Positions 22,801-30,402 are shown, counted from the stretch's first letter. The stretch is DNA of 53,020 nt from a virus (IMGVR_UViG_3300043419_000168:1-53020); one strand, 5' to 3'. Translations and numbers: made by a program. Notes: generated from the sequence alone by a model not told the origin.

Positions 22801-23020
22801 TGGTTCTACTGGAACACTGGATAAGACTAAATATACTTTAGCAACTCCAGTTGTCCCTGCCGTTAAGGTAGAGAATGGAAATGAAACATTCTACGATGTT
22901 GACTATTCTTTAACTAACCTAAACCCATTCGATACGATTCAGGTTAAGGTTGTTATGAAGTCTACAAATAGTTCTGCAATTCCTAGAATCAAAGATTTAC
23001 GAATTATTGCTTGTGCGTAA
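16874..23020 (+). CDS. Giant DUF4815-type virion structural protein
   Basis: At 2048 residues this is the largest protein of the window. The N-terminal YNDDYDENQKFYRILFRPSF and VQARELTQMQTILQKQISRHG segments are typical of the DUF4815 family of large tail or baseplate proteins in T4-like marine phages. Internal modules include a W-x3-T-x-F...PTHTSG unit near residue 315, a HGLVAGSKVIISG module near residue 1640, a region rich in KRIDNLEYYTSLSLLEQET helix, and long Thr/Ser/Gly β-segments. No enzyme motif is visible. It probably forms a long peripheral fibre or baseplate skirt. The stop overlaps the following small gene (TAATG). Exact role is unknown. Confidence 0.75.
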   Translation: MIDFNTEPYNDDYDENQKFYRILFRPSFAVQARELTQMQTILQKQISRHGDHVFKQGAMVIPGQISIDNKAQYVKLNPLYAGVAVETFLSNLEGKILVGSSGLKAEVIKTQSQETTEPTTIYVRYKNSGTNTTTKTFAPDEVITTEDSVYSVQVSPLETTPTGVGSIVTIQRGVYYVNGHFVLVDTHSLILEKYSDTPSYRVGLAVQETVITPEDEDSLLDNAQNSYNFAAPGAHRYFIDLTLAKLPLTSVEDKDFIELLRVNEGVNQKQVSKTEYAELEKTLARRTYDESGDYTVREFAIDVREHRNNDRGAWTGTTSFLLGDVVTNAGKTYVAKNNGTSVSIAPTHTSGTAYDGPGSTGINWEYNENPVYNRGIFRTGDVNKLAIGLEPGKAYVRGYEIEKISTEYVAVNKARDYVQADNAFVTATVGNFIYATNLNNLPPINTFDTVDLYNRVTGSAGRGTAVGTKIGTARVRFIEWDNGTIGSASAVWKVSLFDVKLNSGYTFDRHVKSVFFNGGSAATSFTADVNPITTQLIGSVTAAGTTVTGTGTSFQTDLIVGDYISVAGGLYRVTAIASQTSLTIDASLTTTGATYSLVETRLIESDKDSLVFSLPYYAIRSLRSSLGTNDTSYTVYERFTGTTSSLSGGNCTLTVSTSSGSMASGAVSGNYILIDNTTGDVVLPSAIVPSGASVTFTIPGAYASRPFVVIGAVNKTGSTNTEKTKTLNSATVTFTTQATATATTLSLGKSDAWRIVSIKMKSGTFASPGSTYDIDISDRYSFDNGQRATYYDLGKINLKDTFVPPSAPIEVVFEYFTHSTGDYCSVNSYPSEVSYNDIPAELRDSLDFRPRIDDAGTTFTGSGSAVLVPKRGADVRTDFTYYLSRKEKVAVDINGNFFSISGTSSLTPGEPEDPATGMVLYKLTLEPYTFGTSSENVTISKVDNKRYTMRDIGKLEKRIDNLEYYTSLSLLEQETQSLKISDSTGLDRLKNGFIVDNFSGHGVGNVSSPDYKCSVDMEKGELRPFFTMTNVNLIEKNSNDTQREASNYAQYGDVVTLPILEDVVLVKQEFASRLENINPFAIFTFIGDVKMNPAADEWFEVDRRPDIVNNIEGNFSTIATLAEKAGVLGTVWNSWQTQWSGVPVSQGVRGLSRSEIVSRFGNGPARQVTAEFFATEIGQSRTGVRSSVVAKVDKQVVADRVLSTAVIPYIRSRNVLVQVRGLKPQTRFYPYFDNIDVSSYCTPASKITYTGTQAFDFESNVGGTASETARRIAGDSQVCLNRGDVITGVTSGATAVVVGTELDPDTGAKALLVVNIIGTFQTNEQITGSITNSTATINSVSLATVGGTLTSNKNGNINLLFNIPNTDAVRFRTGSREFKLIDNSVATGDYTSRGRSNYRAEGIIETRQSLVNAVRNAEIAQEVVQDSQTIIETSQRVISDTGWYDPLAQTFLVENKGGAFLTAVDIFFASKDSQIPVTLEIREVVNGYPGKRVLPFSRVTLNPEQINLSTTTVDLDGVATPKYDTPTQFRFTSPVYVQDAGEYCIVLQSDSNKYKCWISQVGDAVPGTSRTISEQPYAGSLFKSQNASTWTTDQTQDLKFTIHRAKFDTSAVGTVQFVNDVLPYKSLVADPFQTTTGSTIVRVWHDNHGLVAGSKVIISGATGTLNGIPSAQLNATHTVANVDLDSYTITVTTAATATGYAGGSTIRATGQVQYDAVYPIAQVQSFSETSVNYSVKTTSGASVDGTQTAYIQDVSFGDCLANENNYFYSPRLVASEVNENNSLGGNKSVTFAVNLSSTNDSLSPVLDTQRMSLVAISNRINSPTHANVDVTPVDYTTLFTGATGAFSFSGSTITSTNTTVRNLISTIGIGQYVKIESATTSGNNGQFLVTDLTDDGTTGTITVSGVTFTSEAAVTGTTVSTVNLFTDEIAPIGSSTASKYVTNAVKLALPSTFVKIRFAANVPSGADVDVYYKTSLGSTGTLDKTKYTLATPVVPAVKVENGNETFYDVDYSLTNLNPFDTIQVKVVMKSTNSSAIPRIKDLRIIACA

Positions 23021-23247
23021 TGGAAAATTTTCTTAAAGTTCAGGGTCATGATGGCTTGGTTAGAGATACCTCTTCCAATGCCATCATAAATACTAGTATG
23101 GTTGATTATGTTCAATATATGAACCAACGTAAGGCTGCAGAACAAAAAGAAAATATTATAAAGACTCAAGCAGAAGAAATAAATAATATTAAATCAGAGC
23201 TTTCTGACATTAAGCAGATGCTTACTGTGTTACTAAAAGATCGCTAA
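23020..23247 (+). CDS. Small conserved coiled-coil virion-associated protein
   Basis: A 75-residue protein, MENFLKVQGHDGLVRDTSSN onward. The first half has a short VRDTSSNAIINT motif typical of small proteins beside fibre genes in T4-like marine phages. The second half (about residues 40-75) is a Lys/Glu-rich heptad-like helix likely to form a coiled coil. I use the ATG at 23020, which overlaps the upstream stop as TAATG, rather than the TTG at 23011. A trimeric fibre connector or assembly chaperone is plausible but unproven. Confidence 0.65.
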   Translation: MENFLKVQGHDGLVRDTSSNAIINTSMVDYVQYMNQRKAAEQKENIIKTQAEEINNIKSELSDIKQMLTVLLKDR

Positions 23248-23262
23248 GAATAAGGGAAAATA

Positions 23263-24435
23263 ATGGCGACACTCGTTCTCCGACAAGTCAAGGGGTCTCC
23301 TCTTACAAACGCTGAGGTTGATGCCAACTTCACGAATCTAAACAATGAATTATCAACTAAGCTAACAGCTACAGACTATAACGCTGCTGACATTCTCACA
23401 AAACTTAAAACAGTTGATGGGTCTGGTTCTGGTTTAGATTCAGACTTACTAGATGGTCTATCAGCATTATCAACACTTCCTGTACCGACAGATAAGAGCT
23501 CTATCGTAGCTCGTGATTCTTCTGGTAACGCAACCCTAAATGCATTGACTTTGGTTGGTGCTTTAGCTGGAACTTCTGGTACGTTTTCTGGAAATTTATC
23601 AGTTGGAAGTATCACTATCAATGGTGGTTCTATTCCAGTTTCTGTTGGTGGTACTGGTGCAACAAACGCATCGAACGCTAGAGCGAATCTTGGCTTGGCG
23701 ATCGGGTCTGATATTCAGGCTTATGATGATTCGTTGCAAGCTATTTCTGCTGTAACACTGACAGCAGACTCTATTCCATATTTTACAAGTTCTACTGCAG
23801 CTGCAGCAACTACGCTAACTGCCTTTGCCAGAACTCTATTGGATGACGCTAACGCATCAACTGCCAGATCTACTCTTGGTTTAGTTATCGGTACAGATGT
23901 TCAACCATTCGACGCTGACTTGTCTGGATTCTCTGGTTTATCTACCAATGGTATTATTGTTAGAGTTTCCAGCGGTAACATCGTTTCAAGAGAAATTACT
24001 GGTGTTATCGGCGACATCGATGTAGTAAATGGTGATGGTGTTGCTGGTTCTCCAGCTTTATCTGTTGGCGCAAATATTCCTCGTCTAGCTTCTAATAATA
24101 CATTTGCTGGAACTACAAATACATTTGTTAATGTGGTGGCTACCTCTTACCAAACTACTTCTGATGCAAGATTAAAAGAGAATGTTCAAACGCTAAATAA
24201 TGCTGTAGAAGTTGTAAATAGACTTCGTGGTGTTTCATATACAAGAAACGGTAAACCAGAAATTGGTCTTATTGCACAAGAAGTTGAGGCTGTTATTCCA
24301 GAGGTTGTTGGTGAATCTGGTGAATATAAGACAGTTTCTTATGCTAACATTGTTGGTTTATTGATCGAAGCTATTAAAGAACAACAAAAAACTATTAAAG
24401 AATTAACTACTCGCGTAGAGAACTTGGAGAAATAA
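23263..24435 (+). CDS. Tail fibre with C-terminal S74 self-cleaving chaperone
   Basis: A 390-residue fibre. The N-terminal LRQVKGSPLTNAEVDANFTN is a common fibre attachment motif, followed by β-repeats (VGGTGATNASNARANLGL occurs twice in related form). The last 90 residues match the intramolecular chaperone/peptidase S74 domain: Ser300-Asp301-Ala-Arg-Leu-Lys, EIGLIAQEVEAVIPEVV and VSYANIVGLLIEAI, ending in a coiled-coil helix. S74 domains trimerise the fibre, then cut themselves off at the conserved Ser. This fibre is probably host-binding. It is followed 1 nt later by the Cys-rich gene. Confidence 0.85.
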   Translation: MATLVLRQVKGSPLTNAEVDANFTNLNNELSTKLTATDYNAADILTKLKTVDGSGSGLDSDLLDGLSALSTLPVPTDKSSIVARDSSGNATLNALTLVGALAGTSGTFSGNLSVGSITINGGSIPVSVGGTGATNASNARANLGLAIGSDIQAYDDSLQAISAVTLTADSIPYFTSSTAAAATTLTAFARTLLDDANASTARSTLGLVIGTDVQPFDADLSGFSGLSTNGIIVRVSSGNIVSREITGVIGDIDVVNGDGVAGSPALSVGANIPRLASNNTFAGTTNTFVNVVATSYQTTSDARLKENVQTLNNAVEVVNRLRGVSYTRNGKPEIGLIAQEVEAVIPEVVGESGEYKTVSYANIVGLLIEAIKEQQKTIKELTTRVENLEK

Positions 24436-24436
24436 T

Positions 24437-24805
24437 ATGCCTGTAAGCGCAACTGGATTTAAAATTTCGTCTGGAGCAGACCTTAATGGTGTGTTCTGGG
24501 GATGGCAGGGTGATACTGGAAATCGTGGTGTAAACGACAGTAATGGTAACTGCGGATGGAACTGTGCATGTAACGCATGTAACTCAGCATGTAACTGTAA
24601 CTGTGGTAACTGCGACGCTGCTGACTTAGCATTAAACGTACACGTTACTGATTGGCGTTTAAACGTATTCCGCAATACTGCATACAATGATGGTCTCCGT
24701 CACGACTCACAAGAACAATCAATGGGACATTTCAAGTATTTACGTGTTAATTGCAACTGTAACTGTGCATGTAACTGTAACTGTGCATGTAACTGTAACT
24801 GCTAA
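24437..24805 (+). CDS. Cys/Asn-rich structural-like protein, candidate radical SAM substrate
   Basis: A 122-residue protein with 17 cysteines. Residues 1-22 (ATGFKISSGADLNGVFWGW) resemble the opening of small phage tail proteins. A first cluster has Cys at 39, 43, 45, 48, 52, 54, 56 and 59, with Asn and Ala between them. Residues 60-104 are ordinary, with Trp, His and Arg. The C-terminus alternates Cys with Asn or Ala at 106, 108, 110, 112, 114, 116, 118, 120 and 122. The GGAG site at 24426 lies within the end of the fibre gene. There is no leader-peptidase motif, signal peptide or homologue I recognise. A ribosomally made, post-translationally modified tail component is one reading because a radical SAM/SPASM gene lies two genes downstream; a metallothionein-like metal binder is the other. 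Confidence 0.7.
   Translation: MPVSATGFKISSGADLNGVFWGWQGDTGNRGVNDSNGNCGWNCACNACNSACNCNCGNCDAADLALNVHVTDWRLNVFRNTAYNDGLRHDSQEQSMGHFKYLRVNCNCNCACNCNCACNCNC
24752..24802 (+). repeat. Tandem 18-bp repeat encoding the C-terminal Cys-Asn/Ala array
   Basis: Two full 18-bp units (24752-24769 and 24770-24787) and a 15-bp partial unit (24788-24802) encode CNCNCA, CNCNCA, CNCNC. Unit changes are third-position only (TGC/TGT). Asn is always AAC. The structure suggests growth by slippage or unequal recombination. Confidence 0.9.
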
Positions 24806-24817
24806 GGAATAAATTAA

Positions 24818-25840
24818 ATGTATAAGTTAATTAAAACAAAAATTACTGGCTTTGACGATATTGAAGATAGCCCTATTGGTGTTAACTCTAATTATAGAGC
24901 TACTATGGGATATGATTCTACAAACGAAACCATTAATGTTAAAGTAGAAAAAATTATTCGCCCTGAGTTAACTAGAGACGAAGAAGTTGAATTTTCTTAT
25001 CAGATTGTTGATGAAAAGTCTTTCACTAAAGCAGACTTTGTTCAAACTAAAGAAAATATGGCATGGCAGGTAGACTTTGATGTTCAGAGTGAGAAAATTG
25101 TAGCTCCTTTAGACGTTTATGCGTACACATCAACTATCGCTACTGGTTCATTATTCCATCGTGTAATGTGGAGAAAAATTAAAGAGCGTTATTCTAGCGA
25201 TACTTTACTTCCACTATTCACTGTAGATTCTTTCTATAAACAAGCTGAAGGGTTTTCCCTTTCAACGCTACAGTTCCACGTGGCTGATAATCCAGGACAA
25301 ATTTCTGACACTGTTATTACAAATTCTGACGTAGAAGAAATGACACAAGCAGAAAAGATTTCTTATTTGTTTGATAATATCAATACTGCAGTTTTTTATG
25401 AAGTGTTTGATGCAGATGATAATTTGTTATCAACCATTGTACCAGTCCCATGTCCTTACCCACAAGTTGCTGTAGCTGCTCGTGAAGGTGATGCAGTAAG
25501 ATCTAGAGGTGGTAATCAGTATAGAACTACATTACCTAAGGCTAGCTCATATAAAGTTGTAGTGTTTTTCCTTAGACTTAATCACAACACAACAATTCCA
25601 TGTCAGTTTGATGTTTCATGTGTTAATGGAGTTGCTTCTAAATCACGTGTTATTTCTGGACTAAAACCAGGTGAACCTACTTCTTATAGAGGAGTTAACC
25701 CAAGAGGAGAATTTACTAGATTTTCTGGAAGCGAAGTCATTAAAGTTAATGTGGACTTAGAATCTGGAGATTTCTTTAAATTGAAATTATCTTGTGGAGA
25801 TTTCTACTCATATTCAGAACTTTGGGCTGATATAGAATAA
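24818..25840 (+). CDS. Unknown 340-residue protein of the radical SAM island
   Basis: I do not recognise this protein. It is acidic overall and predicted β-rich, with a helical stretch near residues 120-160 (RVMWRKIKERYSSDTLLPLF). The C-terminal 130 residues contain VPVPCPYPQVAVAAREGD, a Gly/Arg loop (AVRSRGGNQYR), PCQFDVSC and KLSCGDFYSYSELW, so several Cys lie near the end. There is no signal peptide, membrane segment or nucleotide-binding motif. It begins 12 nt after the Cys-rich gene with an AAGGA site and is followed by a terminator/late-promoter junction, so the fibre, the Cys-rich gene and this gene form one unit. It may be a virion protein holding the Cys-rich subunit, or an assembly factor. 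Confidence 0.6.
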   Translation: MYKLIKTKITGFDDIEDSPIGVNSNYRATMGYDSTNETINVKVEKIIRPELTRDEEVEFSYQIVDEKSFTKADFVQTKENMAWQVDFDVQSEKIVAPLDVYAYTSTIATGSLFHRVMWRKIKERYSSDTLLPLFTVDSFYKQAEGFSLSTLQFHVADNPGQISDTVITNSDVEEMTQAEKISYLFDNINTAVFYEVFDADDNLLSTIVPVPCPYPQVAVAAREGDAVRSRGGNQYRTTLPKASSYKVVVFFLRLNHNTTIPCQFDVSCVNGVASKSRVISGLKPGEPTSYRGVNPRGEFTRFSGSEVIKVNVDLESGDFFKLKLSCGDFYSYSELWADIE

Positions 25841-25855
25841 TACTATTTACAGAGA

Positions 25856-25862
25856 CTAAATA
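25856..25862 (+). promoter_or_regulatory. Late promoter -10 element of the radical SAM operon
   Basis: CTAAATA overlaps the first bases of a terminator stem. Transcription would begin near 25868, in the hairpin loop, about 40 nt before the radical SAM start at 25908. The new transcript would lack the left arm and escape termination. Confidence 0.6.
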
Positions 25863-25886
25863 CCCTGTATAGAACAGGGTATTTTT
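25859..25886 (+). terminator. Intrinsic terminator before the radical SAM operon
   Basis: A 9-bp perfect stem, AATACCCTG (25859-25867) with CAGGGTATT (25875-25883), a 7-nt loop, and a T-run to 25886. It ends transcription coming from the fibre/Cys-rich unit. Confidence 0.85.
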
Positions 25887-25907
25887 CATTTATTATAAAG
25901 GAATAAC

Positions 25908-27377
25908 ATGGCTGCATATAAAATGATCTTACAGGGATCAAATGACGTGAAACAGGTTTTAGTATATGACCCGATGACATCAAAAATGTATTGGGAAGAA
26001 ACTGGCGAAAGACCATCGCTAAACTATATCGCTAATGGTTTGGAGTATCAAATTGATGCTAAAGTCTGGACTCCTGCAAATGTAACTAATCCACATAATC
26101 CAGATCTTCACGGAAAAAAATCAAGAAAACCTACAACTCTTAAGATAACTATGGGTCTTAAGTGTAATTATGCATGTTCATATTGTAACCAAGCTCATCA
26201 ACCACATGACCCAGTTGGTGGTCCAGAAGATGCTGAAGAATTGATTGCTAAGATGAAATCTAATTTCTCATTTGGCACTTATGATAAATTTAGACTAGAA
26301 TTTTGGGGTGGTGAACCTTTAGTTTATTGGAAAACATTAAAACCTCTAGCTGAAAAGGTTAGAAAAGTTTATCCCAACGCACAATTTATGATGGTCACTA
26401 ATGGATCTTTATTAGATCGCGATAAAGTCGACTGGTTCAACCGTATGGGATTTTCAATCGGTATGTCTCATGATGGACCTTTACATGCACAAAATCGTGG
26501 ACCTGATCCACTAGATGAGCCTAAGGCTAAAGATGCTGTTGTTTATGCTCTTAAAACTATGGGTCAGACTAGATTTACCTTTAACTGCGTATTGACAAGA
26601 GAAAACGTGTCAATCTCTGCAGTTCGTGATTTCATTTTAGACAAATTAAATCGTAAAGATTTTGGGTATGAATATACTGAAGTTTCTCAGATGGAACTTC
26701 AAGTGACGACAGAAGAACTGATGTTACCTTATGACGACTCTGGTATGGCACATTCTTTGCATACTACTGATGAAAAGAAAGAAATTTTACATTCTCTATT
26801 CTGGGAAACTATTCAATCTAAGAATCAGTTTAGTTGGACGATTAATCAAAAGATTCAATCTTTCTTTGAGTCTTTAGTGTATCAAAGACCTGCTGAAGTT
26901 ATTGGTCAAAAATGTGGTATGGATAAAGAAGATAATCTTGCCATCGATATGAAGGGTAATGTAACTACATGTCAGAACACTTCTTCTTTAACTAAACACA
27001 ATCTTGGTAATATCGAAGATATGGATAATGTCCGATTGACGAATTCATATCACTGGTCAACTAGAGCGGAATGTCCGTCATGCCCAGTTGTTCAATTGTG
27101 TCAGGGTGCGTGTTTGTTCTTAGAGGATCAGTATTGGACTCAGGCATGTGAAAACTTATTCTATTATAACTTGGGTATGTTAGCTAGTTCTCTTTTCATC
27201 CTTACAGATGGTTTAATTTTAACCGAAATTCATGGCGATAAAATTAGATTCGAAGGAGTTACTTCTATTCCAGTAATTGATATTGACTTCGTCAAGTCTA
27301 ATGGAAAGCAGAAATCTTGGAAAGTTAAAAAACCAATTAACATTCCTATCGTTACAGTACCAGCAGTACCACAATAA
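25908..27377 (+). CDS. Radical SAM/SPASM peptide-modifying enzyme
   Basis: A 489-residue enzyme. The radical SAM cluster motif Cys86-x3-Cys90-x2-Cys93 is in MGLKCNYACSYC, followed by GGEP at 134-137. The C-terminal SPASM domain has all seven cysteines in canonical spacing: Cys336-x13-Gly-x4-Cys355, then Cys389-x2-Cys392-x5-Cys398-x3-Cys402, and Cys414; it would hold two auxiliary 4Fe-4S clusters. Such enzymes mature peptides (thioether or C-C crosslinks) or sulfatases. No sulfatase gene is visible, so a peptide or protein substrate is likelier. Residues 1-80 precede the barrel and could bind substrate; no clear RRE fold is recognisable. AAGGA at 25897 precedes the ATG. The gene leads an operon with a 105-residue protein and a DctP-like protein. 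The substrate is inferred to be the Cys-rich protein at 24437. Confidence 0.9.
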   Translation: MAAYKMILQGSNDVKQVLVYDPMTSKMYWEETGERPSLNYIANGLEYQIDAKVWTPANVTNPHNPDLHGKKSRKPTTLKITMGLKCNYACSYCNQAHQPHDPVGGPEDAEELIAKMKSNFSFGTYDKFRLEFWGGEPLVYWKTLKPLAEKVRKVYPNAQFMMVTNGSLLDRDKVDWFNRMGFSIGMSHDGPLHAQNRGPDPLDEPKAKDAVVYALKTMGQTRFTFNCVLTRENVSISAVRDFILDKLNRKDFGYEYTEVSQMELQVTTEELMLPYDDSGMAHSLHTTDEKKEILHSLFWETIQSKNQFSWTINQKIQSFFESLVYQRPAEVIGQKCGMDKEDNLAIDMKGNVTTCQNTSSLTKHNLGNIEDMDNVRLTNSYHWSTRAECPSCPVVQLCQGACLFLEDQYWTQACENLFYYNLGMLASSLFILTDGLILTEIHGDKIRFEGVTSIPVIDIDFVKSNGKQKSWKVKKPINIPIVTVPAVPQ

Positions 27378-27378
27378 T

Positions 27379-27696
27379 ATGGCATTTCTTGATTGTTATA
27401 TTTGGGAAGTTAATAAGTTTCCCAGGTATGGTAAAAACCTTGATAGAAACACGATCTCTAACATATTTTATGTTAAATCTGACGAGAACGGATTTCAAAA
27501 TAATAATGTTAACATACAGATCCCCGATTTTTTAATTCAGGGAACTGAGGCTGAAAAACTCTTTGTGTATAAATATAAAGAGAAAATAATTAAACATTGT
27601 CTTCCAATAATCGTTTCTGTGAGTAATAGTTATGGTGAACTTGAATGGAAGCTAGACCTACGTGTTGCAGAACACGTTAAATATCTAAGAAACTAG
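27379..27696 (+). CDS. Small unknown protein coupled to the radical SAM gene
   Basis: A 105-residue protein starting MAFLDCYIWEVNKFPRYGKN, one nucleotide after the radical SAM stop. It is of mixed charge, with a β-rich N-terminal half and a helix (GTEAEKLFVYKYKEKIIKH) in the middle. I know no family for it. The ATG at 27379 is preferred to an in-frame ATG at 27277 that lies inside the radical SAM gene. Tight coupling suggests a partner, for example a substrate-recognition subunit like the discrete RRE proteins of RiPP systems; that is a guess from size and place. Confidence 0.6.
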   Translation: MAFLDCYIWEVNKFPRYGKNLDRNTISNIFYVKSDENGFQNNNVNIQIPDFLIQGTEAEKLFVYKYKEKIIKHCLPIIVSVSNSYGELEWKLDLRVAEHVKYLRN

Positions 27697-27706
27697 GAGA
27701 TTAAAA

Positions 27707-28654
27707 ATGCAACAAAAACACGTAAAATGGGTTATTGCCCATGAGCCGATTGGTTTGTTCTTAAAGGTAGCTGACGCATTCGCTAAAGAAGTGAACGAAC
27801 AAACTGGTGGAAAATTCAATATTGAAGTTCTATCATTATCTGACTATGCAGAAAAGTATAACGATGGTAAGAAAATTACTAAAGACGACTTGATGGCATT
27901 GGTTGATACTGGTGCAATCGAAATGAGTCACATCTATACAACATGGCTAGCTGACTATAACAAAGATCTACATGCTCTAGATCTACCATTCTTGTTCCGT
28001 GATCACGATCATGCTGACGCAGTTCTAGAAGGCGAAATCGGTACTGAATTGTTGGCTGGTGTTTCTAAACAGTCAAATATCAAGGCTATGTCTTTCACTT
28101 ATTCTGGTGGTTATCGCGTAGTTCCAGCTAACTTCCGTGCTGATACTGTAGAAGCATGGAAAGGTAAAGCTGTTCGTACCTCACGTTCACCAGTTGCTGT
28201 TGAAACATTCAAGCTACTTGGCGCAGAACCAAAAGAGCACATCGCTCTAGAAGAAATGAACGCAGCTGCTAAAGCTGGTCAGATCGAAGCTGGTGAATCT
28301 ACTTATGTTCGTGTATTCCCACTACAACAGAATGAAGCATTTGCTGTAGTTAATGATACTGCACATAGCTTGTTCTTAACTTCTATTATCGTTAACCAAG
28401 ATTTCTTCAAGCAGTTTGATCAAGAAACTCAAGAAATTATGGCTACTGCTGCATTCAATGCTGCTCGTAAAGAGCGTCGTGAATCAGTTGCTGATATTCC
28501 AAACATCCTAGCTGAATGTGCAGCTAAAGGTGTTGAAGTTGTTAAGATGTCTGCTACTGAAGAGCAGAAGTTTAAGGAAGTTACTTCTTCTGTGTATGAG
28601 AAGTTCGCTGACTACTTCACTCCAGGATTGGTTCAGAAGATTCAATTACATTAA
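27707..28654 (+). CDS. TRAP-type (DctP-like) solute-binding protein without signal peptide
   Basis: A 315-residue protein with the DctP family pattern: FLKVADAFAKEVNEQTGGKF at the N-terminus, HALDLPFLFRDHDHADAVLE, GELL-type lobe, WKGKAVRTSRSPVAVETFKL and the FAVVNDTAHSLFLTSIIVN hinge strand. Bacterial DctP proteins are secreted and feed C4-dicarboxylates or other acids to a TRAP permease. Here the mature fold begins at once (MQQKHVKWVIAHEP) with no signal peptide, and no permease genes are present. It would therefore stay in the cytoplasm or enter the virion. The start has a good AGGAG site. It ends the radical SAM operon, before a strong terminator. A bacterial gene captured and re-used is the likely origin. 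Confidence 0.85.
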   Translation: MQQKHVKWVIAHEPIGLFLKVADAFAKEVNEQTGGKFNIEVLSLSDYAEKYNDGKKITKDDLMALVDTGAIEMSHIYTTWLADYNKDLHALDLPFLFRDHDHADAVLEGEIGTELLAGVSKQSNIKAMSFTYSGGYRVVPANFRADTVEAWKGKAVRTSRSPVAVETFKLLGAEPKEHIALEEMNAAAKAGQIEAGESTYVRVFPLQQNEAFAVVNDTAHSLFLTSIIVNQDFFKQFDQETQEIMATAAFNAARKERRESVADIPNILAECAAKGVEVVKMSATEEQKFKEVTSSVYEKFADYFTPGLVQKIQLH

Positions 28655-28712: not shown

Positions 28713-29789
28713 ATGAGTAACATATTATTTTACAATGTAGGTTTCACCAAACAAGTGATTGACAAGAACCCAGAATCAATCTCTGAGTTTCTTAATCCAG
28801 ATTATAAACAACTATTTGATTTTTATGATAAACATAAAATGAATATGAATGTTGTCTATGATAGAACTGGAAACACACCTCATTATTTAAAAATTAAACC
28901 AGATCTACTGAAAATTCCTACAGTAGACTCTACATTCAATAAATCGTTTAGACAATGTGTAGAAGAAAGAACTAAACATCTTCTTTCGCTGGGTAAAAGA
29001 ATTAATGTCGTTTGGAGTGGTGGTATTGATAGCACTCTTGTATTGTTTGCATTTTTACATTACTGCAACGACCCATCACAAATAACAGTGTATGGAACTT
29101 ATAGTTCTGTACTAGAATCTGGAAGTTTGTTTGATAAAGTAATATTACCTTCTGGTGTTCACCATAAAATAAAGGTATCATCAAGAAGAGATTTTGATGA
29201 CTGTCCAGAAGATGAAATATTCGTAACTGGGTTTTTCGGTAATCAGTTGTTCGGTCCGACTGATAATTTTACTACAAATAAAACAGTAAAAACTGACATA
29301 TCATTTTTCCATCATCAGTTTAATGGAACAGATCCACTTGATGATTACACCAAGTACATAGATCCAGAGCTACATGAGTTTTTGACGCCATGTATTAAAG
29401 CAAGTCCGAAGCCAATAGAAACTTTGAGGGATCTAAGATGGTGGTTTATTTTTAATTTGGATTGGTATACTGCAGAATTTGCAACAAGAATTAACACTAA
29501 GCAACAAGACAACCAATATCACTTCTTTAATACTGACGATTTTCAGCGTTATGTTATAACAACTAAAGAACCATTCACGAAAGAAGTTGGTAATCCATTA
29601 ACCCATCGTTGGGTTATGCGCGAGTTAATTGAAGAGTGGAGTGGAGATAGCCATTATGCTTGGAACAAACCAAAAGGGGTTTCCAATCTAGGAAACCCCA
29701 ACCCTACATGGTTATTTTTATTAGACGACTATTCAGTCTATTATTTAAGAAACAACAGTCTTTTTAGTAGTTCGCGAAACTTACCATAA
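28713..29789 (+). CDS. Asparagine-synthetase-like PP-loop ATPase
   Basis: A 358-residue protein with the ATP-pyrophosphatase motif Ser102-Gly-Gly-Ile-Asp-Ser107 in NVVWSGGIDSTLVLFAFLH, and a VTGFFGNQLFG segment corresponding to the second ATP-site loop of AsnB. The N-terminal 90 residues do not start with the catalytic Cys2 of a glutaminase domain, so it cannot use glutamine in the AsnB way. Such proteins adenylate a carboxylate: free Asp in asparagine synthesis, or a peptide side chain or C-terminus in lasso-peptide cyclases and amidating enzymes. It has its own late promoter at 28665. Its 3' end overlaps the convergent minus-strand gene by 26 bp and carries that gene's terminator. Confidence 0.7.
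   Translation: MSNILFYNVGFTKQVIDKNPESISEFLNPDYKQLFDFYDKHKMNMNVVYDRTGNTPHYLKIKPDLLKIPTVDSTFNKSFRQCVEERTKHLLSLGKRINVVWSGGIDSTLVLFAFLHYCNDPSQITVYGTYSSVLESGSLFDKVILPSGVHHKIKVSSRRDFDDCPEDEIFVTGFFGNQLFGPTDNFTTNKTVKTDISFFHHQFNGTDPLDDYTKYIDPELHEFLTPCIKASPKPIETLRDLRWWFIFNLDWYTAEFATRINTKQQDNQYHFFNTDDFQRYVITTKEPFTKEVGNPLTHRWVMRELIEEWSGDSHYAWNKPKGVSNLGNPNPTWLFLLDDYSVYYLRNNSLFSSSRNLP
29672..29699 (-). terminator. Minus-strand terminator inside the PP-loop gene
   Basis: A perfect 9-bp stem, GGGGTTTCC (29676-29684) and GGAAACCCC (29691-29699), with a 6-nt loop. Read on the minus strand it is followed by TTTT (29675-29672), about 65 nt beyond the stop of the minus-strand gene at 29764. On the plus strand there is no T-run. 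Confidence 0.6.
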
Positions 29790-30402
29790 CATTGATAGTT
29801 ACGTAAGTTTGATCGTCTAAGTTAGTTTCTGTATATCTTTGGACATATCCAGGAGTTACAAAAATCTCTCCGATATTTCCTTTAATACCGTAACCAGTTC
29901 CAATAAGGTTTTGGCTTACGATATTTTTATCAACTGTTTGAACACCACCACGAGTGTCAGCGAAGTATGTCACTGGACTATTTTGACTAGCATTAACAAC
30001 AAATGTGAACACTAATGGAGTGAACTCATAACAGTGTAATGGGATATGCTCGAACTTTTGTTGGAACAATGTATTTGCACCAATAATCATTGGAGGTCTT
30101 TGGTTTTCTCCAGAAAATAGTGGAAGATTATCACAAATTTCATAAATCACTTCCTTTAGTCTATTTACAGCTGGATGGTCTAGTTTCATAACATCAACAT
30201 ACGCATTTGCTTCTGTAGCGTTAGATGAATCTGACAAATCCATTAATGTTTGCGCAATTTTGTTCCAATCAGAGAATGTATAGCTTCTGAATAATGTTGG
30301 AAACATTACTTTTTCATGAGTTTGCGTAACTGGGGTGTAATCAAAAGCAGGAAGTTCAGATTCTTGAACAATTCCGTTTTGTGGTGCTTGGATGTTTTCC
30401 AT
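29764..30402 (-). CDS. Possible oxygenase-fold (DSBH) protein with degenerate metal site
   Basis: A 212-residue protein, the only minus-strand gene after position 3231. The C-terminal half looks like a 2-oxoglutarate/Fe(II) dioxygenase barrel of the kind common in T4-like marine phages: a PLHCYEFTPLVFTFVVNAS strand pair, VTYFADTRGG, and GEIFVTPGYVQRY followed by a late strand (YVTINVMVSF). In active members the distal GxLxxFPxxxxH region carries the second His; here that place reads GYVQRY, so the metal triad may be incomplete. The gene has two late-type promoter elements upstream and a terminator within the neighbouring gene. If active it could hydroxylate a protein; if not it may be a binding protein. 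Family assignment is tentative. Confidence 0.45.
   Translation of the reverse strand: MENIQAPQNGIVQESELPAFDYTPVTQTHEKVMFPTLFRSYTFSDWNKIAQTLMDLSDSSNATEANAYVDVMKLDHPAVNRLKEVIYEICDNLPLFSGENQRPPMIIGANTLFQQKFEHIPLHCYEFTPLVFTFVVNASQNSPVTYFADTRGGVQTVDKNIVSQNLIGTGYGIKGNIGEIFVTPGYVQRYTETNLDDQTYVTINVMVSFANY

Follow-up and report, generated by a model that had tools for sequence, protein, structure and literature searches.

Genes of the tail-fibre locus

The stretch of DNA analysed here, hereafter the window, is a contig of 53,020 bases from a T4-like phage, as judged by PHROGs matches to baseplate wedge, tail sheath, portal, major head protein and terminase genes. Four consecutive genes on its plus strand encode an S74 tail-fibre protein, a 122-aa cysteine-rich protein, a 340-aa protein and a 489-aa radical SAM enzyme. 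The fibre protein (390 aa; 23263–24435, +) carries a C-terminal S74 chaperone domain (Pfam S74, 1.3e-15; PHROG tail fibre, 3.6e-27), and a small structural gene lies 5' of it (23020–23247). An earlier note on this DNA had described a 122-residue protein with 17 Cys in C-x-C arrays, located in the tail-fibre cluster two genes upstream of a complete radical SAM/SPASM enzyme. The reading frames and the invariant cluster motifs of the enzyme confirm this description, the fibre gene being directly 5' of the cysteine-rich gene (24437–24805, +). The late promoters that had been proposed for the cassette found no support: TATAAATA occurs twice in the window versus 5.3 times expected, and nowhere upstream of 24437.

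The 17 cysteines of the array protein, the presumed substrate, fall into two blocks (residues 39–59 and 106–122), and a 20-member alignment contains invariant cysteines. The inner block, CGWNCACNACNSACNCNCGNC (residues 39–59; 24551–24613, +), is followed by DAAD, and the C-terminal array, NCNCNCACNCNCACNCNC (residues 105–122; 24749–24802, +), contains nine cysteines that are invariant in the family. The pattern C-x-C-x-C-x-C-x-C gave five overlapping matches as opposed to 0.00 expected from 100 shuffles, and a crude pN/pS between relatives of 0.10 for the array, versus 0.36 for the remainder of the protein, indicates purifying selection on the array. With regard to the C-X3-D/E motifs of ranthipeptide substrates, the protein has a single CDAAD (C59–D63, with D63 nearly invariant); the terminal arrays are of the C-x-C type. 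The protein has no family match in Pfam, PHROGs or NCBIfam and no recognisable virion domain, and its AF2 model shows no confident fold (pLDDT 39).

The 340-aa partner protein (24818–25840, +) is likewise assigned to no named family by Pfam, PHROGs or NCBIfam, and tblastn among phage isolates gave no match for either this protein or the array protein. The family has 52 members, 51 of which are encoded directly 3' of an array gene, and on this comparison it is the third conserved member of the putative module. The AF2 model is beta-rich and in two parts (pLDDT 89, pTM 0.87), and this predicted fold is unlike the small winged-helix recognition element of RiPP enzymes. A fold search of the PDB with the model yielded no credible match (TM at most about 0.23 by query length), while the BFVD search returned six phage proteins without assigned function (TM 0.45–0.71). 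The protein could act as a partner at the fibre tip, or as a chaperone during maturation. Some systems may do without it, since at some loci the array and enzyme genes are only 17–19 bases apart and therefore have no partner gene between them.

With regard to the enzyme (25908–27377, +), the presumed maturase, the 489-aa sequence matches PF04055 (37.5 bits, cut-off 29.5), the SPASM model TIGR04085 (36.3 bits, cut-off 27) and phrog_1802 (1.7e-63), a family of phage radical SAM proteins to which PHROGs assigns no role. The radical SAM cluster motif CX3CX2C is present as CNYACSYC (residues 86–93; 26163–26186, +), and C86, C90 and C93 are invariant across 37 diverse aligned sequences. The same holds for all seven cysteines of the SPASM stretch (residues 336–414; 26913–27149, +), which follows the canonical C..GX4C..CX2CX5CX3C..C as C336, G350-X4-C355, C389-X2-C392-X5-C398-X3-C402 and C414. 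Judged by its motifs, the protein is a complete radical SAM/SPASM enzyme, with the domain itself and a seven-cysteine motif predicted to bind two auxiliary [4Fe-4S] clusters. SPASM enzymes with two auxiliary clusters often form thioether or carbon-carbon links in peptides. The reaction of this enzyme is not readable from its relatives, however, because it scores far below every NCBIfam equivalog cut-off, the best by score being PapB (NF047865; 73.9 versus 340 bits), with the anaerobic sulfatase-maturating enzyme, anSME (63.9 versus 349 bits), and SCIFF (53.3 versus 425 bits) below it.

Several other genes accompany the module. A small conserved ORF of 105 aa (27379–27696, +) is found 3' of the enzyme in the phage lineage of the window, and next to it lies a gene for a DctP-like TRAP solute-binding protein (27707–28654, +; Pfam 3.8e-42). 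The latter protein begins with MQQKHVKWVIAHEP, has no obvious signal peptide and is 85–98% identical among related phages, which looks like a periplasmic fold in cytoplasmic or virion use. A PP-loop ATPase-like protein with SGGIDS and weak asparagine-synthase/QueC similarity (28713–29789, +) is kept 3' of the enzyme, immediately so in a distant locus (L019), and is possibly another modification enzyme of the cassette. Putative 2-oxoglutarate Fe(II) oxygenase genes are frequent between partner and enzyme (L020, L023, L198 and others) and occur in or beside the module (29764–30402, −, in the window; a 20-member cluster); these enzymes could hydroxylate tail-fibre residues. Two distant phages encode a pair of fatty-acid-desaturase-like membrane proteins between array and enzyme (L018:5155–6654 and L039:10308–11815). 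A second radical SAM gene, shorter or more distant, adjoins the first in five loci (L026, L092, L121, L122 and L076) and is perhaps responsible for a second modification step.

Co-occurrence and distribution of array and enzyme

To survey array genes, 2.9 million viral contigs were scanned with a DNA pattern for N-C-N-C-N-C-x-C, and at least 120 stretches (L054–L173) were listed. Among these listed matches, an enzyme gene was present at 53 of the 53 genuine array genes for which 4.5 kb or more of downstream sequence was available, near relatives included; 52 of them were counted by an enzyme-family gene downstream on the same strand, and the remaining one is L160, where the enzyme gene overlaps the array gene. 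A further 28 array-ORF loci among the listed matches had too short a downstream sequence to be counted. Four apparent arrays without enzyme (L060, L145, L169 and L170, each with at least 4.5 kb downstream) were rejected because their ORFs are short or spurious and lack a tail array at the C-terminus. Listed matches that fell outside array ORFs were accompanied by the enzyme in 1 of 35 cases, and that one lies 39 bases from the contig end. A family of small proteins with CENCNCNCHC (L062–L064, L069, L080, L111 and L170) was set aside as unrelated, its array not being C-terminal and no enzyme being nearby.

Seeding was also done in reverse with the enzyme alignment, bacterial-genome loci being counted if the array was present or at least 3.5 kb of upstream sequence was available. 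An array was detected in 58 of 62 viral loci. Of 73 loci from bacterial genomes, 58 had one, which leaves about 15 relatives of the enzyme there with no array detected. In two of the four viral exceptions (L316 and L326) a protein with 14 Cys is encoded immediately 3' of the enzyme, and a third (L286) is the same contig as L018, whose array sits about 6 kb upstream. It should be kept in mind that these co-occurrence counts include many near relatives, so the loci are not independent.

Same-locus relatives were retrieved with the small structural gene that precedes the fibre gene (23020–23247) as bait. Nine T4-like relatives with other cassettes at this position (L335, L337–L340, L342, L343, L346 and L349) have neither array nor enzyme; two of them, L335 and L338, share the N-terminus of the fibre with the window, yet carry neither gene. 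The pairing that the earlier note had proposed to look for in phage genomes was thus found to be near-obligate when seeded from either side, and the cysteine-rich gene was not seen to be widespread without the radical SAM gene among the pattern, enzyme-seeded and same-locus loci. Some more distant radical SAM genes were considered as relatives and rejected. Those of Campylobacter phage CP220 and Salmonella phage SPN3US have no CxC-array gene beside them, although SPN3US (L332) has its radical SAM genes as an adjacent pair, close to a virion-structural gene; plasmids contained distant maturases only.

The module occurs in IMG/VR contigs, in marine and freshwater T4-like phages and in siphoviruses, among them the isolated siphovirus JWF (an Achromobacter phage, temperate and UV-inducible; PMC3899368) and its relative 2-1. 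It is also present in tail-gene clusters of bacterial genomes; the bacteria concerned include Limnohabitans, Thalassobacter, Nereida, Thalassovita, Burkholderia paludis, Paraburkholderia, Polynucleobacter and Magnetospirillum, and the Thalassobacter copy adjoins fibre-like genes. Short RiPP-like ORFs were found beside bacterial relatives of the enzyme: one of 71 aa with DCGC is directly followed by the enzyme homologue (L249:5627–5842), another contains DCGC (L242:5488–5844) and a third CACACGGPC (L224:7777–7965). The two examined for NCBIfam membership belong to no family there. These DCGC and CACAC ORFs point to modification of C-x-C motifs in peptides.

The array as a C-terminal element of tail proteins

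The distance from the end of the last C-x-C to the C-terminus is 0–8 residues in 196 of 215 loci. The arrays are mostly of the form (N-C)n, as the residue between the cysteines is Asn in 608, Ala in 131 and Asp in 65 of 880 CxC. Many of the array proteins are tail fibres by PHROGs, with E-values down to 2.7e-200 (L327), and that of L137 is collagen-like by Pfam. The N-terminal type of the window fibre, LRxxKGSPLTNAEVDANFTNLN, is itself array-tipped in other phages (L120, L271–L274, L298 and L308). Since the N-terminal parts of the array proteins form ten groups with no detectable similarity between them (single linkage, E 0.001), the array is their common element. The array-ended proteins span 67–891 aa, unlike the short RiPP precursors from which a leader is removed after modification.

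Most of the other 19 loci have the array followed by a domain of about 170 aa, often a Hint autoprocessing domain. In 12 loci the array runs straight into CFPAGT, or a sequence very like it, with which the Hint domain starts (L025, L052, L053, L084, L160, L189, L191, L192, L197, L204, L293 and L305), and the array protein of JWF (PJWF_00028) matches Hom_end_hint (Pfam, 3e-12), cleavage being predicted between CNCNCS and CFPAG. Examples of a Hint domain immediately after the cysteine array at the end of a tail protein are L084:1163–2593 and L052:9679–11127. The predicted Hint cleavage would again make the array the C-terminus. A third form has an SKIICTKL domain of about 170 aa behind the array (L082, L311, L313, L315, L318 and L325). 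Hint-bearing arrays are found on several branches of the tree, and since at least three changes are required, the Hint form was probably gained or lost repeatedly. We make no claim on origin beyond this, because enzymes without array are scattered over several places in the tree and some rows have very long branches. Compared with the earlier note, the third conserved gene, the Hint-processed variants, the wide distribution that extends to bacterial genomes, and the placement of the array at the C-terminus are additions.

A putative maturation module and its alternatives

The array is shared, the remainder of the protein is variable and the enzyme is dedicated, so the most economical reading takes the array as the enzyme's substrate. 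This reading, which agrees with the earlier proposal that the enzyme acts on a cysteine-rich tail protein, is strongly supported by comparison, given the near-obligate co-occurrence, the position of the array at the C-terminus of fibres in many phages, and the joint absence of array and enzyme in cassette-less T4-like relatives. We therefore propose, with a probability of roughly 0.7, a three-gene tail-fibre maturation module in which the enzyme modifies the C-terminal array, most likely by thioethers, to give a compact modified fibre tip. A virion protein, here the 122-aa protein and elsewhere the tail fibre itself, would end in a C-x-C array, mostly (Asn-Cys)n, with the beta-rich partner encoded adjacent to it. 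The dedicated radical SAM/SPASM enzyme would recognise the array and modify several cysteines by radical chemistry before or during assembly, thioether bonds from Cys sulfur to neighbouring residues being the most likely product, and would thereby leave the free fibre end with a compact, modified tip. We infer that the array protein is present in the virion.

As to the chemistry, thioether bonds are the likeliest choice, at slightly better than even odds, because of the SPASM relatives PapB, CteB and anSME and the RiPP-like C-x-C ORFs beside bacterial relatives. PapB-type ranthipeptide maturases resemble the window enzyme in their radical SAM/SPASM core and adjacent cysteine-rich substrate (a presumed one in the window), but the score of the window enzyme places it outside the ranthipeptide group. 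PapB links Cys to Asp/Glu (PMC9413430), and its substrates are short precursor peptides, whereas the C-x-C arrays described here end virion proteins. Of the solved structures, PDB 5wgg, which is CteB, the SCIFF thioether maturase, matches most of the enzyme in a profile comparison (4.7e-14); this SPASM enzyme likewise acts on a short peptide as opposed to large tail proteins with C-terminal arrays.

The second-best solved relative is anSME (PDB 4k37), aligned along most of the enzyme (2.4e-16), and the JWF homologue carries the annotation anSME. The array cysteines could accordingly be modified without crosslinking, for instance to formylglycine, whose aldehydes at the tip could bond amines of the host surface, and the exposed C-terminal position would suit such a reactive tip. 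We consider this unlikely, as the aligned array proteins of the 20-member family contain no CxPxR or CxAxR sulfatase motif, the system includes no sulfatase, the enzyme is far below the anSME cut-off, and we know of no anSME substrate resembling CxC repeats. Even less probable is a metallothionein-like or Fe-S/metal-binding tip with the radical SAM enzyme acting elsewhere. Metallothioneins do have CxC spacing and phage spike tips can bind metal ions, but such a tip would explain neither the Asn bias nor why unrelated proteins are almost always paired with one and the same enzyme family, and the array protein matches no metallothionein family in Pfam, PHROG or NCBIfam.

We give equally little weight to the idea that the enzyme really acts on the 340-aa partner or on a molecule of the host cell surface, with the array protein a mere neighbour in a host-recognition island. 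Pelagimyophage islands of this kind are rich in surface-modifying genes and have gained radical SAM cassettes (PMC7029224). These cassettes, compared here by the description in that paper, resemble the present one in belonging to T4-like marine phages and lying in the tail-fibre island, but were given no substrate or function, and the main text does not mention cysteine (PMC7029224). Against the idea, the array goes with the enzyme whether the context is a siphovirus, a myovirus or a bacterial genome, and at the loci with the 17–19-base gap no partner gene intervenes.

Returning to the array as substrate, a dedicated, ribosomally made candidate substrate is encoded beside its putative maturase and co-inherited with it, which is RiPP-like. 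The system can be described as RiPP-like maturation apparently applied to virion proteins, with an enzyme that lies by cut-off outside the ranthipeptide and anSME families. As far as we are aware, radical SAM peptide maturases have been described for small peptides and for enzyme cofactors. In line with the earlier note, which knew of no phage virion protein matured in this way, the open-access literature yielded no description of a virion protein matured by a radical SAM enzyme, although absence there is not proof; nor did it yield a publication linking phrog_1802 to cysteine arrays, and the paper on Xylophilus phage Lumi, a possible JWF relative, does not mention radical SAM.

With a fibre that ends in a Cys-Asn ladder and the enzyme and partner genes beside it, many tailed phages probably equip their particles with a tip modified by an enzyme of their own. 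Its placement at fibre ends hints that the tip might serve in stiffening, protease resistance or binding at the point of host contact. Whether widespread tailed phages and prophages use an (Asn-Cys)n tag that a radical SAM/SPASM enzyme and a new partner turn into a multiply crosslinked tip, with Hint exposing the tag in some and possibly attaching it covalently to a target, we regard as evenly balanced. The isolated phage JWF makes the reading directly testable. If true, it would account for phrog_1802, so far an orphan among phage enzyme families, as well as for a new family of partner proteins, and would provide a C-terminal tag and enzyme potentially portable to other proteins. Maturation of virions by chemistry of the RiPP type would then be a new kind of process, and a chemically unusual host-contact surface would be predicted.
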